Below, piece after piece: positions 23,761 to 60,302 of a DNA stretch of 64,000 nucleotides; within the stretch, counting starts at the first letter, position 1, and each line of letters starts with the position of its first letter. This DNA is from an uncultured Elusimicrobia bacterium (GTDB lineage Bacteria > Elusimicrobiota > Elusimicrobia > Elusimicrobiales > UBA9959): NCBI GenBank assembly GCA_903879915.1, contig CAIRNJ010000092.1, positions 1 through 64,000 of the forward strand, read 5' to 3'. The translations under genes and the position numbers were made by a program. The notes below the pieces were generated by a model. That model did not search any database. It was not told the origin of the DNA and saw only the letters and a program-made list of their open reading frames with translations.

Positions 23761-24837
23761 TCACTTGGGGGTAATGCCTATGCCGGCTTTTACCCTGTCC
23801 AGCGAATAAACCCCGTCTTTCGAAAGGAAAGAGGCTCCTTTCATGCCGCTGCCTCTTATGAAGAAAGGGATGTCAAGGTCGATGAAATCGAAACCGCCCA
23901 GGCCGCCGGCGAACTGGGCCGCGGCGGCGGAAGCCAGCTCGCTCTCCACCATCTCGCCCATCATCAGCTTCACGCCGCGGGCCCGCGCCAGCGCCCACAC
24001 TTCGCGGGCGCGCAGGAAGCCCAGCTTGGTGAGCTTTATGTTCACGGCCGTCACGGCTTTGCGCCGCAGCAGGCGGAACACGTCGTCCAGTGAATAAGCC
24101 GATTCGTCGGCGCAGACCGGCATGGAAAGCTTTTTTGACAGGTAGGCCATGCCGTCGATATCGTCCTTGGCCACGGGCTGCTCCAGCACCGCCGGCACTA
24201 TGCCCATGCCCGCCAGGTTCTTTATGAACTTTTCCGCCCCTTTGGCGGTGCAGGCGCAGTTGGCGTCCAGGTAGATAGGCGAGCCCGGGGCGGCTTTTTT
24301 AACGGCCTCGAGCCTGCGGTAATCCTCGTCCATGTCCGCGCCGGTCTTCACTTTGAAAATTTTAAAACCCTGGCGCCGCATCTTAAGCGTGAACCCGTAG
24401 GCCGCGTCGGCTTTGCCTATCACCACGGTAACGTCGGTCTTGAGCGCCGGCGTTCTGCCGCCGAAGAATTTCCACAGCGACACGCCCTGCAGCCGGCTGA
24501 CCAGGTCGAGCACGGCCATCTGCGCCGCCGCCAGCGCGGCCCTGTTGCCGTCCAGCTCCCCCTCCAGCACGCAGAGCAGCTTAAGGTAGTTGTCGGCGTC
24601 GGCGCCTTCCAGCAACTTGCCGGCGCGTTCCAGGCTTTTTACGGTCTGCTCGCGCGTTTCGCCGGTGATATGCGTGGCTATGGCCGCCTCGCCGTAGCCG
24701 CGCGTGCCGCCCGCGCACTCCAGCGTGAACAGCGCGTTGGCCAGGCTGCTGTGGCTGCCGCTTGAAATAGTGAACGGGGTAAACAGCTCCGCATCCAGCT
24801 TCTTAACAGAAAATTTAGTTATCACTGTTGTTTTCAT
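23761..24837 (-). CDS. Dipeptide epimerase, enolase superfamily
   Basis: A 358-residue enolase-superfamily enzyme of the L-Ala-D/L-Glu epimerase type. The catalytic lysines are in FKVKTG (KxK) and NIKLTK. The metal ligands are Asp in LDANCACT, Glu in LEQPV and Asp in CADES. The N-terminal capping domain covers ~1-125. The family epimerises dipeptides, often from peptidoglycan turnover. The usual DANQ has become DANC, but the Asp is kept. AAGGA lies before the ATG, with a TATAAT further upstream (24908-24913). It is the first gene of the operon epimerase-small membrane protein-macroglobulin-dinB. Confidence 0.87.
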   Translation of the reverse strand: MKTTVITKFSVKKLDAELFTPFTISSGSHSSLANALFTLECAGGTRGYGEAAIATHITGETREQTVKSLERAGKLLEGADADNYLKLLCVLEGELDGNRAALAAAQMAVLDLVSRLQGVSLWKFFGGRTPALKTDVTVVIGKADAAYGFTLKMRRQGFKIFKVKTGADMDEDYRRLEAVKKAAPGSPIYLDANCACTAKGAEKFIKNLAGMGIVPAVLEQPVAKDDIDGMAYLSKKLSMPVCADESAYSLDDVFRLLRRKAVTAVNIKLTKLGFLRAREVWALARARGVKLMMGEMVESELASAAAAQFAGGLGGFDFIDLDIPFFIRGSGMKGASFLSKDGVYSLDRVKAGIGITPK

Positions 24838-24945
24838 AAGTGTTATCCTTTGGCGGCAGGAAGCAACGGCTTCAATGCCCGGCGCCCGGAAGCATTAAAT
24901 CTATTTAATTATAAATGCGTGGCCCAAAGCAACCGCGCAACTTAC

Positions 24946-24977
24946 GCCTGTGAGATTTCCGCACAGGCTAATTTTTT
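24946..24977 (+). terminator. Terminator-like hairpin without a gene
   Basis: GCCTGTG (24946-24952) pairs with CACAGGC (24962-24968), followed by TAATTTTTT. The T run is on the forward strand, but both flanking genes are on the reverse strand and no forward gene ends here. It may mark a small forward transcript starting near 24920. Confidence 0.45.
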
Positions 24978-25007
24978 CAGCTCGGCATCCTCGCCTGCAC
25001 CAGAGCC

Positions 25008-26183
25008 TCAATATTCCGGCGCCGCGCCGCGGCGCTCGTCATAACGGCGCCAGCAGTCTATGTCCCTTATCAGCTTACGGGCAAGCTGCCTGGAAACAGC
25101 AGGGGCGGTACTGTCGTGACGCAGGGCGTCCAATTGTCCCAGCAGCTCAGAAACCAGCGCCGGGCAGTCTATGCGGGAAACAAGTATCAGGTCAGACGCG
25201 AAGCGGTAGGTCTTATAGCGCACTACCCCGTCAGGGTCCAGCAGCGCGCGCAGTGTAACCCGCAGGCAATCGGCGCGGAATATTTTAGTGATGAGGCTGA
25301 ACCGCAATTCAGGCAGGGCGCACATGGCGGCGCGGCGGCGGAGCGGATCCGGGCTCTGCAGCTCCAGCTTGAAGCAGTGCCAGAATCCGCAAAGCGTGCG
25401 TGAAACCGGAAAACCGTCCACGATCCTGTTGCCGTGTTCCTCTTCCCAGCTTAAGTGCACAATGCGCTTAAGTTCCCCCCTGGCCGCCTTGCGGACCTGC
25501 GCCGAGGGAGAAAGCACACCGTCGAGAAAACGCGCGAAGAGCCTGGCGCCGGCGCTATCTTTTTCAATGCCTGCCGGCAAGCGCTCCCGTTTCAAGGCCC
25601 GGAGCGTAAGCCCGTCGAAACGCGGCAGCGGCGTAGTATACGCGAGGTCCCTTAAAATACCATAGTAGTCGTAGTAATGCGGCGGCCCGGTAAAGACCCC
25701 GCCTTTGGGAAGGGCTATGGTGATAACCGCCCCGGGGTCGTGCGCGCGGCGCAGCAGCCGCTGCAGGAAAACGCGCTCCAGCGGCAGGTCCGCCACGCGG
25801 GCCAGAGCGCTGTCATACTTCTTCCATACTTCGGCGCTTTCCGCGTCCGGCGCAGTAAGCTCGGCTTCGGCGGGGCAGGCGCGCGCCATAGAAAGGCGCA
25901 GATCGTGCACAAGGGCGTCCAGGCGCAAGGCCAGGCGGCCGGCGCGCTTAACGGCCTGCGCTTTTTGCTCCGCTGGCAGGGAGGTCTTCGGCTTGAGCTC
26001 AGCGGCCAGAGCGGACAGTTCAGCCAGACCGGCCCGGTACAGGTCCTCTATTTCGTGCCAGCCGTCGCCGGGTTCGCGGCCAAAACGCCGCACCGCCTCG
26101 CCGAATTCTTCTGCGGTTTTCAGAAATTCAAAAGTGAACTTGCGCAGGCCATGAAAGGAAATGTTAGACGCAACATAAGACAT
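25008..26183 (-). CDS. Unknown protein, possibly helical-repeat
   Basis: A 391-residue soluble protein I do not recognise. It has no signal peptide and no TM segment. Residues ~50-120 look like a long helical pair rich in Ala/Leu/Arg. The C-terminal third (~220-370) shows Leu/Arg/Ala-rich helices of ~35-40 residues that could be degenerate HEAT repeats. ACAGGAG lies 6 nt before the ATG, a strong SD. It sits at the edge of the AT-richer patch but is itself GC-rich, like the core genome. No function assigned. Confidence 0.7.
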   Translation of the reverse strand: MSYVASNISFHGLRKFTFEFLKTAEEFGEAVRRFGREPGDGWHEIEDLYRAGLAELSALAAELKPKTSLPAEQKAQAVKRAGRLALRLDALVHDLRLSMARACPAEAELTAPDAESAEVWKKYDSALARVADLPLERVFLQRLLRRAHDPGAVITIALPKGGVFTGPPHYYDYYGILRDLAYTTPLPRFDGLTLRALKRERLPAGIEKDSAGARLFARFLDGVLSPSAQVRKAARGELKRIVHLSWEEEHGNRIVDGFPVSRTLCGFWHCFKLELQSPDPLRRRAAMCALPELRFSLITKIFRADCLRVTLRALLDPDGVVRYKTYRFASDLILVSRIDCPALVSELLGQLDALRHDSTAPAVSRQLARKLIRDIDCWRRYDERRGAAPEY

Positions 26184-26251
26184 TCTATTCTCCTGTCGCC
26201 GATAATATCATTTCTTATGGATAATGCTATAAAGGTCTTCATGGTATATTT

Positions 26252-26440
26252 TCATATTTTATCTAGCCTGTCCCCTTTTTCCACTATGTCGGGCTGATAA
26301 TAATTCGGCAGGTCTATGTTGTGCCAGATAAGGCAGTCGTCCGGCAGCGCGGTCCTGAGCTTGTTAAGGAGATACTTCTTCCCGGCATTAATGCCGTAAG
26401 CCCTGTCCCCCAATGCCGAATCCGGAATTACGATGGCCAT
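26252..26440 (-). pseudogene. Truncated NERD-like gene remnant
   Basis: An open frame of 62 codons. Its N-terminus (MAIVIPDS) and the segment LPDDCLIWHNIDLP...QPDIV follow the start of NERD (nuclease-related) domains, where a stretch such as PDFVV and then an ExK catalytic motif would follow. Here the match ends at PDIV, and the last codons come from a REP-like sequence (26264-26280) that brings the stop. No SD precedes the ATG, and the rest of the domain is not found nearby. I read it as a broken gene. It could instead be a small intact gene of unknown role. Confidence 0.45.
26264..26280. repeat. REP-like motif at gene truncation point
   Basis: TAGCCTGTCCCCTTTTT lies exactly where similarity to a NERD domain stops. 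From memory, similar CCTGTCCCC sequences flank Y1 (IS200-like) transposases in other genomes. No transposase is present here. The assignment is from recall only. Confidence 0.35.
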
Positions 26441-26479
26441 GGTTTTTCGGTAAATATCACGGCTGGCGTTTTTTACTCC

Positions 26480-27925
26480 TTACTTTTGGAATAAGGCTTT
26501 CCAGTCTTTTTTATATGGAAAGGTGCGAGTGCAGGAACCGCCAATCCCCCCCATGTTCAATTCTACAACGTCTGATTTGGCACAAGGCGCGAATTCAGCT
26601 CTAGAACCTATCGATATCGAAAGTTTTACTACCCCCTGGCTACTATTCATTGGAAGGAAAGCGTACCCGGCATCCCCCTTAAATTCCATACCGCCGACAC
26701 GCAAATCAGAATAAATATTGGTGTCCTTCCGTTTTCCAGGTAAAATAGAGTCAAAAACGTAATTAACGCTGAAAACAAGTTTGTCCTGGGCCTCTTCAAG
26801 GACGGTAAAGTTATAAATCTTATTACCGCCACAAGCCAGTTCTTCATTTTTTCTTACTCGTTCCAACTCTCTTTCCGAGTAAATTTTCAATGCACTCCGT
26901 GCCTCGGGTGTATCAATATACCCCAAGATATTTAAAGCCGCTGCATGATGAGTATCGTCCGCGGAATCGAGTATCTTGATCAGGACCGGCAAGCTGGGTT
27001 TAAAAATTTTAGAAGCCTTAGCCGGGTCCGCATCACACGCAGCGGTATATCTTGCAACCAGCCTCGCAAGAAAATGCCGTTCGCTGCTATAGGGACTTGG
27101 ATTTTTTAGTAAATAGTTTAAAAGCACGGTTATCAAATGCGGCGCATCCGCATTAATCTTATCAGGTTGGTATCGGTCCAGGTTGTCCAAAGCCCCCATA
27201 TTAACGGTATCTAAATCCTCCTTAATTTTAGCATCCGTTTTGTATCCCCACTGAGCCATAATACTTGACGCAGCACTGCTTACATCCGTATTTTCATCTT
27301 TTAGCGCCTCCTGCATGGCTGGAATAGAAGAAGCCGCTAGCGGTTGACCTATATAGCCCAACATATACACGGCATGAAGCCGCTTATTCCAGTTTTTATC
27401 CTTGAGCGCAGCGGCAAGTTTAGTTACATATGTTGCCTGTTCAGTTGCCGGCAATTTTTTCAAATCCCAAAGTGCGTCACCGCCGCTGAGGTCACCAACA
27501 AGAAGCCGCTCCAATAAGGGCTTTTTGGTTGAAAACCCCGCAAAGGCGCACAGAAAAACCAAAGCGCCGAAACCTGCAAATCTTTTCACATAACCACTAC
27601 TATAACCCGCAATTCCGCTTGAGCTTTTGGAGGTTGTATTCCTAAACCCCGCTATCAGCCCCCAGATAGTGAGCACAAGCAACACCGGTGCAATAACAAG
27701 TAGATCTATACGAATCGGACCTACCAGATCCGATATCCACCAGTTCAGGAAAGCATTCAGGAACCAGGCAACAGAGGCTGACATGCACCCCCATTTCAGC
27801 CGCCTCTCAATATCAGGTCCGGAACGAAAGCCGGGCAGCAGGAAAAGTATGAAAAAAAAGAGCGAGACTCCCAGCGACGGCAACGCTAAAACAATCGGCA
27901 AAAACAAATATGAGAATATTTCCAT
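26480..27925 (-). CDS. HEAT-repeat membrane protein
   Basis: A 481-residue protein. There are three N-terminal TM segments (~5-32, ~45-65, ~72-95) and a fourth (~113-130). Residues ~150-345 hold HEAT-like repeats (KRLHAVYMLGYIGQP and HHAAALNILGYIDTP are the clearest), probably outside the cytoplasm. The C-terminal ~110 residues form a beta-rich domain with Cys residues near the end (APCAKS, GGSCTR) that could form a disulfide. Base composition is more AT-rich than its neighbours, which suggests horizontal acquisition. No SD is visible at the ATG. No known family recognised. Confidence 0.75.
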   Translation of the reverse strand: MEIFSYLFLPIVLALPSLGVSLFFFILFLLPGFRSGPDIERRLKWGCMSASVAWFLNAFLNWWISDLVGPIRIDLLVIAPVLLVLTIWGLIAGFRNTTSKSSSGIAGYSSGYVKRFAGFGALVFLCAFAGFSTKKPLLERLLVGDLSGGDALWDLKKLPATEQATYVTKLAAALKDKNWNKRLHAVYMLGYIGQPLAASSIPAMQEALKDENTDVSSAASSIMAQWGYKTDAKIKEDLDTVNMGALDNLDRYQPDKINADAPHLITVLLNYLLKNPSPYSSERHFLARLVARYTAACDADPAKASKIFKPSLPVLIKILDSADDTHHAAALNILGYIDTPEARSALKIYSERELERVRKNEELACGGNKIYNFTVLEEAQDKLVFSVNYVFDSILPGKRKDTNIYSDLRVGGMEFKGDAGYAFLPMNSSQGVVKLSISIGSRAEFAPCAKSDVVELNMGGIGGSCTRTFPYKKDWKALFQK

Positions 27926-28003
27926 AAATTATTGTTGTAACACCCGCGCTAACCCGTTTTGAAATTTTACCTCTTTAGGGCCTTTTCCGCTATAAAAAAG
28001 CCA

Positions 28004-28032
28004 TTGACGGGATATTGGCGCTCTGATATACT
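28004..28032 (+). promoter_or_regulatory. Strong sigma70-type promoter
   Basis: TTGACG (28004-28009) and TATACT (28027-28032) are separated by exactly 17 bases. The predicted transcription start is G28039. No forward-strand protein gene follows; the only forward element downstream is the hairpin RNA described next. Confidence 0.75.
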
Positions 28033-28038
28033 ATTTAT

Positions 28039-28142
28039 GAAGAGCGGTAAGCCCGTTGCAGGTCGTTCCAGGCGTTCCCTTCCATCGTGTGGGCCATAAC
28101 CTGGACATTTTAGCCTGCGCGGCACGCTCTTCTTCCTTTTTT
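28039..28142 (+). ncRNA. Candidate structured small RNA, ~104 nt
   Basis: The predicted transcript begins GAAGAGCG (28039-28046), which is the exact reverse complement of CGCTCTTC at 28125-28132; TTCC and six T follow. Inside are a second helix, 28053-28062 with 28114-28122 (9 bp, one bulge), and a third, TCCAGG 28067-28072 with CCTGGA 28100-28105, closing a rod-like fold. So promoter, folded body and terminator are all present. It lacks the SRP apical motif and is too short for a typical 6S RNA. It converges on the DUF3800 gene, and its T run overlaps that gene's stop codon. Confidence 0.6.
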
Positions 28143-28785
28143 AAGGCAAATACAGACGATCCACCTTCACGTGCGCTTTAAAGACGTCGTACCAAGCGCA
28201 ATCACCGTTCTCGTATTTACGTGAGATTCCCCAGGCGAACATATCCACCGCCTGCAGTCCAGGGCGCTCTTGCGAAAGAGCGTGGTAAATATCCAACGGG
28301 ATAGCCGGATCGATAAAAGCCTTTATTTGGTTGATTATATATTCGTTAAAACCAAGTATTTCACGCCTGGTTTTACTTTTATCCACTGTAATTATCACTC
28401 TTATGGCTGCGTCCCTAAACTCAACGTGCTCAAGCGTTAATCTGGAAATATAGTTATAAATACGCTCTTTATCCCTTGAGAGGGATTCATAAACTTTCCT
28501 TTTGTTCAAAGTGACAGCGTATAGTTTAAAGCCGATCCGGCATATTTTACTGTAAAAGAATTTTTTTATTGCAAGCGTTGTGTCGCTACCTTTAAGTTCG
28601 GCACAGGTTTTCTTGGCTTGCCGCCTGAGTTTTCTGCCAATAACCGCCCGTACGGCATTAGTAAGGGCCCGGTCGTCATCCCGGCCCTTTAACGCCAGTA
28701 CGCATATTGTGAAGAACGCGCTTGGCTTTTTGTTCACGAAATCAAAACCGAGGTCGCCGCTTTCGTCCAGGTATAGATAGAGCAT
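28141..28785 (-). CDS. DUF3800 protein
   Basis: A 214-residue protein beginning with the DUF3800 signature YLYLDESGD. Later acidic and polar positions also fit (IITVDKSKT near the middle, QAVDMFAWGI near the end), consistent with an RNase H-like fold; activity of the family is not established. I use the ATG at 28785 because GGGGGT stands just before it; an upstream ATG at 28803 has no SD. It lies in the AT-richer patch, convergent with the RNA candidate. DUF3800 genes are often found in mobile or accessory regions. Confidence 0.85.
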   Translation of the reverse strand: MLYLYLDESGDLGFDFVNKKPSAFFTICVLALKGRDDDRALTNAVRAVIGRKLRRQAKKTCAELKGSDTTLAIKKFFYSKICRIGFKLYAVTLNKRKVYESLSRDKERIYNYISRLTLEHVEFRDAAIRVIITVDKSKTRREILGFNEYIINQIKAFIDPAIPLDIYHALSQERPGLQAVDMFAWGISRKYENGDCAWYDVFKAHVKVDRLYLP

Positions 28786-28909
28786 ATGCACCCCCTTGCG
28801 CATCTATAGCATAGCAGGCGAACCCGTCATAGGAGTGTCGGGGTAAATTTGGGGCAAATGTCGCGTTCGGAGGGTGATTTCTTTGAGCTAGGGTACGGCG
28901 GTGGATATC

Positions 28910-60173: not shown

Positions 60174-60202
60174 TTGACACTTCCGGTGATTTTTGGAAAG
60201 AT
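60174..60202 (+). promoter_or_regulatory. Promoter of P-type ATPase leader
   Basis: A perfect TTGACA (60174-60179), then 17 bases, then AAAGAT (60197-60202), a weak -10 that keeps the second A and the last T. Predicted start of transcription near 60209, giving a leader of about 119 nt. Confidence 0.5.
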
Positions 60203-60221
60203 ATCCGCACTAGATCAGGCG

Positions 60222-60302
60222 GTCCCCCGCACGGGGGACGCGGCCGGGCCCAGCGCAGCGGTTCTCAGACCGCGGGACTATATTCTCCCGCGGTTTTTAT
60301 TT
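60222..60302 (+). promoter_or_regulatory. Attenuator-like leader of P-type ATPase
   Basis: Hairpin 1 is GTCCCCC/GGGGGAC (60222-60239). Hairpin 2 is GCGGT (60258-60262) with ACCGC (60269-60273). The terminator hairpin is CCGCGGGA (60270-60277) with TCCCGCGG (60286-60293), followed by TTTTTATTT. Hairpin 2 and the terminator share bases 60270-60273, so they exclude each other. The ATPase ATG is 26 nt past the T run. This is the layout of a transcription attenuator or riboswitch, perhaps sensing an ion. I do not recognise a known class. Confidence 0.6.
60270..60302 (+). terminator. Intrinsic terminator in ATPase leader
   Basis: An 8-bp perfect stem with an 8-nt loop and a TTTTTATTT tail. No gene ends upstream on this strand (thioredoxin is on the other), so the terminator acts on the ATPase leader itself. 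Confidence 0.75.

Follow-up and report, generated by a model that had tools for sequence, protein, structure and literature searches.

A DUF3800-V RNA and a convergent gene for a predicted RNase-HII-like nuclease in Elusimicrobiota: a candidate RNA-controlled effector pair

The locus and its structured RNA

The unit described here lies in the window (by which we mean the whole stretch of 64,000 nucleotides analysed) and consists of a small RNA and a gene of the DUF3800 family, which converge tail to tail, as the initial annotation had seen, and overlap by 2 bases, the T tract that ends the RNA (28137-28142) reaching into the TTA of the stop codon (28141-28143). The accessory slot that houses it, located between mcsB and the gene at 23761-24837, spans 24858-28882 and is 4.0 kb long here; in a relative, the same slot beside mcsB holds 0.9 kb of different sequence between flanks that are 95-96% identical. 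Relatives carrying the unit in other surroundings share with the window positions 28000-28842 (L035), 28002-28840 (L039) and 27933-28843 (L032). The neighbouring genes in the window encode a HEAT-repeat protein, a guanido phosphotransferase-like protein and a protein without family. The genome has one copy each of the DUF3800 gene and of the RNA, whose features are collected in Table 1.

Table 1. Features of the RNA-DUF3800 unit, in window positions.
Feature	Position	Strand	Basis
Complete unit: the RNA and the gene, each with its promoter	28000..28842	both	conserved in differing surroundings
Sigma-70-type promoter of the RNA: TTGACG 28004-28009, 17-base spacer, TATACT 28027-28032	28004..28032	+	sequence, conservation
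DUF3800-V RNA, from predicted start G28039 to end of T tract	28039..28142	+	Rfam, covariation, shuffles
Closing helix, 5' arm (partner 28125-28132)	28039..28046	+	sequence, alignment
Closing helix, 3' arm (partner 28039-28046)	28125..28132	+	sequence, alignment
Inner stem-loop	28058..28118	+	alignment columns converted to window positions
Helices of the inner stem-loop, with asymmetric loop between them	28058-28063/28113-28118 and 28067-28073/28099-28105	+	
Apical hairpin within the inner stem-loop	28078-28083/28088-28093	+	
DUF3800 gene, 214 aa, predicted RNase-HII-like nuclease	28141..28785	-	PF12686 51.3 bits, family start, model
Promoter element of the DUF3800 gene: imperfect palindrome CGACA-N6-TGACG, then extended -10 TGCTATGCT	28806..28842	-	

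The initial annotation had proposed a possible new structured RNA of about 104 nt with its own promoter and terminator, to be checked against the covariance models of Rfam. That search assigns 28037-28134 (+) to RF02964, the DUF3800-V RNA, with 56.1 bits (gathering score 37.4) and over the full length of the model (positions 1-96 of 96), so that the observation was right and the word "new" was wrong. Score, compensatory changes and the neighbouring DUF3800 gene all agree with membership, and the fold and extent are those of the family, with no essential difference. No other Rfam family matches at this place even at E values up to 5, which leaves the loose likeness to 6S RNA that had been suggested without support; 6S and SRP RNA were both discarded as identities, having no Rfam match. 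The search of the whole window returned RF02964 and, as its only other match, a NiCo riboswitch (RF02683) at 60201-60282 (+), which scores 39.9 bits (gathering score 37).

The RNA folds with -37.7 kcal/mol (z -3.18; 2 of 200 shuffled sequences fold equally well). In an alignment of 69 RNAs, which includes some near-duplicate sequences of common contig origin and counts identical ones once, 25 pairs in five helices have 94.1% of their helix cells paired, and pairing falls to 21-45% when the partners are slid as a control. Two-sided changes occur in 22 of the 25 pairs and amount to 252 cells against 76.5 in shuffles; in the closing helix, 98.2% paired, they affect all five counted pairs. The compensatory base changes that were to decide the matter are thus present in homologues and strongly support a structured RNA, and the alignment confirms the end helix, the two inner helices and the asymmetric internal loop proposed from the single sequence, adding a 2-bp helix and the apical hairpin. 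The G at 28039, the 8-bp end helix and the T tract could all be read where they had been placed. The same holds for the promoter with its 17-base spacing, which recurs at the right distance with at most 3 mismatches of 12 in 62 of the 69 copies, against 7 of 204 displaced control windows; within the genus, TTGAC is invariant and the -10 hexamer conserved in all 19 copies. Covariation and the conserved promoter rule out that the sequence is part of a protein gene, and this is, on comparative sequence grounds, a true structured RNA of a known family. Judging from the sequence, the closing helix with the T tract can serve as a terminator; some copies of the Patescibacteria type have a separate terminator-like hairpin after the closing helix. 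No free variable stretch was seen in the 69 aligned RNAs, both ends being locked in the conserved helix.

The DUF3800 protein and the promoter of its gene

Judged by the family alignment, the start of the DUF3800 gene is more likely at 28785 than at 28803, an earlier ATG to which the open frame extends. Among 45 aligned proteins, D7, E8, E63, D135 and H168 are invariant and D181 is kept in more than 90%, while the block DLGFDFVNKKPS that follows the DESG motif is nearly invariant. D7, E8, D135 and D181 are candidate counterparts of the catalytic DEDD residues of RNase HII. The AlphaFold2 model (pLDDT 89.5) finds its best Foldseek match in RNase HII (1eke, E 1.6e-6), which is also the best match in VIA-align (Z 13.7, rmsd 2.9 over 164 residues), followed in the top rows by RNase H2 and H3 structures; a PDB search with the sequence returned matches at chance level only, so the relation is visible by fold alone. 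The protein is therefore modelled as an RNase-HII-like nuclease, a prediction with which its consecutive D-E (residues 7-8) agrees, in a DE(S/A)G motif as in RNase HII. It differs from RNase HII in being 8-14% identical in the listed alignments, in the invariant loop after the motif, in its link to an RNA and in its accessory, patchy occurrence. The model is among its least confident in that loop (residues 11-20, pLDDT 61), as would suit a surface that becomes ordered upon RNA binding; lying next to the predicted active site, the near-invariant N-terminal loop (residues 11-22) is likely an RNA-binding surface. NCBIfam has no family for the protein. An RNase H fold of DUF3800 has already been reported (PMC10910872, PMC12669027), and the resemblance to RNase HII, as it appears in the model, is a more specific result.

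The promoter element of the gene belongs to a box with the palindrome CCCGACA-N6-TGTCGGG followed by the extended -10 TGCTATGCT. The DNA upstream of the gene, used as a query, gave many matches in the genus, and the box has 24 sites in the genome of the window against 0 for a reversed control pattern. In this genome and its relatives it directly precedes, among others, ssb, dinB, radC and DUF1016 nuclease genes, and recA of the same genome has the same box as the DUF3800 gene. It is present at the intact DUF3800 copies examined in the genus, except the first gene of one array (G016), which sits behind a DUF1016 gene bearing its own copy; at the RNA promoter it is absent. A LexA-controlled SOS regulon would share with these genes a box common to recA and repair functions, but neither LexA (PF01726, PF00717) nor an S24 repressor was found in this genome, which is 99% complete, and the box therefore looks like that of a damage-type regulon without a recognisable LexA or S24 repressor. 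From the sequence we infer that the DUF3800 gene is induced by damage.

Distribution and pairing of the RNA and the gene

In the genus, 19 RNAs are found in 12 of 32 genomes, and matches occur in 22 of the 341 genomes of the phylum. When 84,980 species, each represented by one genome, were scanned for the partner protein, 58 loci emerged, with titles that name Elusimicrobia, Omnitrophota, Nitrospinota, Nitrospira, Planctomycetes, Patescibacteria, Deltaproteobacteria and others. The RNA is present at 52 of them; the remaining six are truncated at a contig end or retain just a broken or partial gene. Intact pairs are convergent over many phyla, the 3' end of the RNA usually lying a few bases from the DUF3800 stop codon. 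On the protein tree, Elusimicrobiota, Omnitrophota and Myxococcota require more than a single change, which would fit horizontal spread, without proving it.

Two genomes of the genus carry arrays of the unit. G016 (L029 7731-11873) has four RNAs at intervals of about 1 kb, of which three accompany intact genes and the fourth a gene remnant; G028 (L030 5259-6877) has two RNAs. The order of the members differs between the arrays, and matching members resemble each other more than they do their array neighbours in both RNA and protein, which indicates that RNA and gene travel as a pair. RNA and protein distances are also correlated (Mantel r 0.54; 0 of 5000 permutations), which does not separate coevolution from joint inheritance. 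The spacing in G016 had suggested integron cassettes, an idea that was dropped when the repeats found turned out to be the units themselves. Both arrays lie near exopolysaccharide export and polymerase genes and DUF1016 nuclease genes.

The pairing is asymmetric. About 16 RNAs stand beside an absent or broken gene, ten of them in Elusimicrobiota (G012, G014, G150, two in G151, G153, G156, G006:C123, the fourth of G016 and G162) and about six in other phyla, and several of the Elusimicrobiota genomes concerned are more than 90% complete and lack any intact V-type gene. No intact gene was found without an RNA except at contig ends (G016:C23 and others), and the V-type gene remnants that lack an RNA are all broken (G003, G020, L127, L135). 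Conserved positions are kept in 95-98% of cases in solitary RNAs and 95% in paired ones. RNAs that outlive their genes are what an antitoxin would leave behind, judging from these sequences, some of whose breaks may be assembly errors; since the gene is about six times as long as the RNA, it is also expected to break more often by chance. L195 and L196 have solitary DUF3800-V RNAs without a gene, and the RNA of L196 adjoins AbiEi/AbiEii toxin-antitoxin genes. At L135 (4001-4330) some 25 residues of a DUF3800-V protein remain, and directly after them comes a small gene in the opposite orientation, RelE-like by eye.

In other phyla, seven of ten tested genes abutting the DUF3800 gene upstream belong, as a raw count, to restriction-modification systems: HsdM (L085, L095, L117), HsdS (L113, L114) and type IIG-like proteins (L107, L111). 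One of the ten encodes a RadC N-terminal domain. At L117 the unit is located between hsdM and hsdS. A complete unit (R1, 93 bits) is also flanked by the terminase and portal genes of a Mu-like phage, on a viral contig of IMG/VR (L288); tblastn against GenBank phage records gave no match. The terminase gene of this contig also matches a Hint (intein-type) domain.

More distant DUF3800 proteins (L153-L157 and L209; L160, L161, L163, L165 and L212) have a convergent, conserved, hairpin-rich stretch at their stop codon, preceded in most cases by promoter-like hexamers. At nine loci with distant DUF3800 proteins no Rfam DUF3800 family matches at E values up to 1; three of the group L153-L157 and L209 match the V-type model weakly (24-30 bits), and L208 and L213 carry DUF3800-IX. 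A convergent RNA partner may thus be general for DUF3800 proteins, with some types unlisted in Rfam, as these few loci suggest. One locus (L162), unlike the convergent layout, shows a possible RNA 3' of a DUF3800-like gene on the same strand, with TTGACA/TATAAT, hairpins and a T run.

Possible roles and comparison with known systems

In our assessment the balance stands about even for a model in which a constitutive RNA inhibits a damage-inducible nuclease effector; its toxicity, its binding to the RNA and its induction are what we infer. The RNA would be made constantly from its own ordinary promoter and would bind and silence the little nuclease that healthy cells produce, much as the RNA antitoxins of type III toxin-antitoxin and AbiF systems do. 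Upon DNA damage or phage infection nuclease output would rise, or RNA output fall, and the free nuclease would attack nucleic acid and stop growth. The RF02964 match, covariation and promoter, the convergent position of the RNA at the stop codon over many phyla, the Mantel correlation, the RNase HII fold, the solitary RNAs, the box on the gene only, the restriction-modification neighbours and the unit in a Mu-like phage all speak for such an inhibitor, whereas the lack of repeats and of co-transcription, which sets it apart from classical type III systems, and the failure to find LexA or S24 speak against it.

Obligatory pairing of RNA and gene would be expected if the RNA were a working part of an RNA-protein enzyme, that is, a cofactor, guide or substrate that the DUF3800 protein needs, on the model of IscB/TnpB with omegaRNA or of retrons. 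The RNase H fold is common to RNA-guided nucleases, DUF3800 proteins accompany some CRISPR systems (PMC10910872, PMC12669027), and there is a weak match to PADLOC DUF3800_VII. We nevertheless find this reading rather doubtful: solitary RNAs would be useless to it and yet have kept their conserved positions and promoters, no reverse transcriptase was identified among the neighbouring genes scanned, and a guide function is disfavoured because the RNA, with its ends locked in the conserved helix, has no free variable stretch. The solitary RNAs, which persist without a target in cis, likewise weigh against an improbable type I-like mechanism in which the convergent DUF3800 mRNA, read through into its 3' part, is paired there by the RNA and blocked in its expression, in the way that TxpA/RatA involves antisense pairing with the 3' part of a convergent mRNA. 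The layout with adjoining ends is what it would require, no U-rich terminator follows the helix on the strand of the gene, and an mRNA that continued beyond the stop codon could pair with the RNA over its entire length; pairing, though, needs no conserved fold, and here fold and motifs are conserved across phyla. As for the unit being a small selfish or homing element, whose nuclease aids spread and whose RNA serves it, its sharp borders in differing surroundings, the shuffled order of array members, the insertion between phage terminase and portal genes and the broad, patchy distribution are all suggestive. We regard this explanation as very unlikely, given that the arrays show neither terminal repeats nor a common target site and can also arise by unequal recombination, that no recombinase was seen beside the units examined and that in the Elusimicrobiota genus the gene carries the box of a damage regulon.

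Extending inhibition by the RNA beyond this family is more tentative, and we lean slightly away from it: DUF3800 proteins with convergent RNAs, including RNA types outside Rfam, could make up a single large class of RNase-HII-like nuclease effectors silenced by RNA, a toxin-antitoxin or abortive-infection module that would differ from types I and III, spread across phyla, lying in restriction-modification operons in some and belonging to a damage-type regulon without LexA in Elusimicrobiota. If true, this would add an RNase-HII-like kind to the few known RNA-controlled toxins, and the class may be wider than recorded, as DUF3800 proteins outside the Rfam families may have convergent RNAs of their own. 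Newly noted here are the box on the gene in the genus, the restriction-modification neighbours, the RNAs that outlive their genes and the RNA-like elements absent from Rfam. The accessible literature assigns no function to DUF3800 RNAs, and the comparison with known systems supplies a hypothesis that can be tested cheaply.

Among these systems, retron type VII is related through the protein: PADLOC DUF3800_VII, the type VII effector, matches weakly (24.6 bits), belongs to the same broad family and works with a non-coding RNA, but no reverse transcriptase is seen among the neighbouring genes in the window and the similarity of the proteins is weak. Type I systems have antisense overlap and a small, usually membrane-active toxin; here the overlap comprises 2 bases of coding sequence, with read-through 3' overlap possible, and the protein has 214 aa and an RNase-HII-like model. 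Type III and AbiF systems share the combination of a structured RNA with an accessory protein gene, and AbiF is neutralised by direct binding of the abiF-motif RNA RCd22 (PMC12373285); the abiF RNA motif stems from the same 2017 survey to which that article refers. The RNAs of these systems are repeated, precede the gene and lie on the same strand, those of type III being co-transcribed as tandem repeats, whereas DUF3800-V is a single RNA on the opposite strand, 3' of the gene and with its own promoter, and its partner has an RNase-HII-like fold. SymE/SymR combines a damage-induced toxin gene with a cis-encoded small RNA, and its relatives occur near restriction-modification genes (PMC1891008); SymR acts as an antisense RNA and SymE has an AbrB fold, while the DUF3800-V RNA, encoded at the 3' end of its gene, keeps a conserved fold, in a genome in which no LexA was found. 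Taken as analogies, the AbiF and SymE/SymR precedents would both fit a constitutive RNA that restrains a damage-inducible nuclease.
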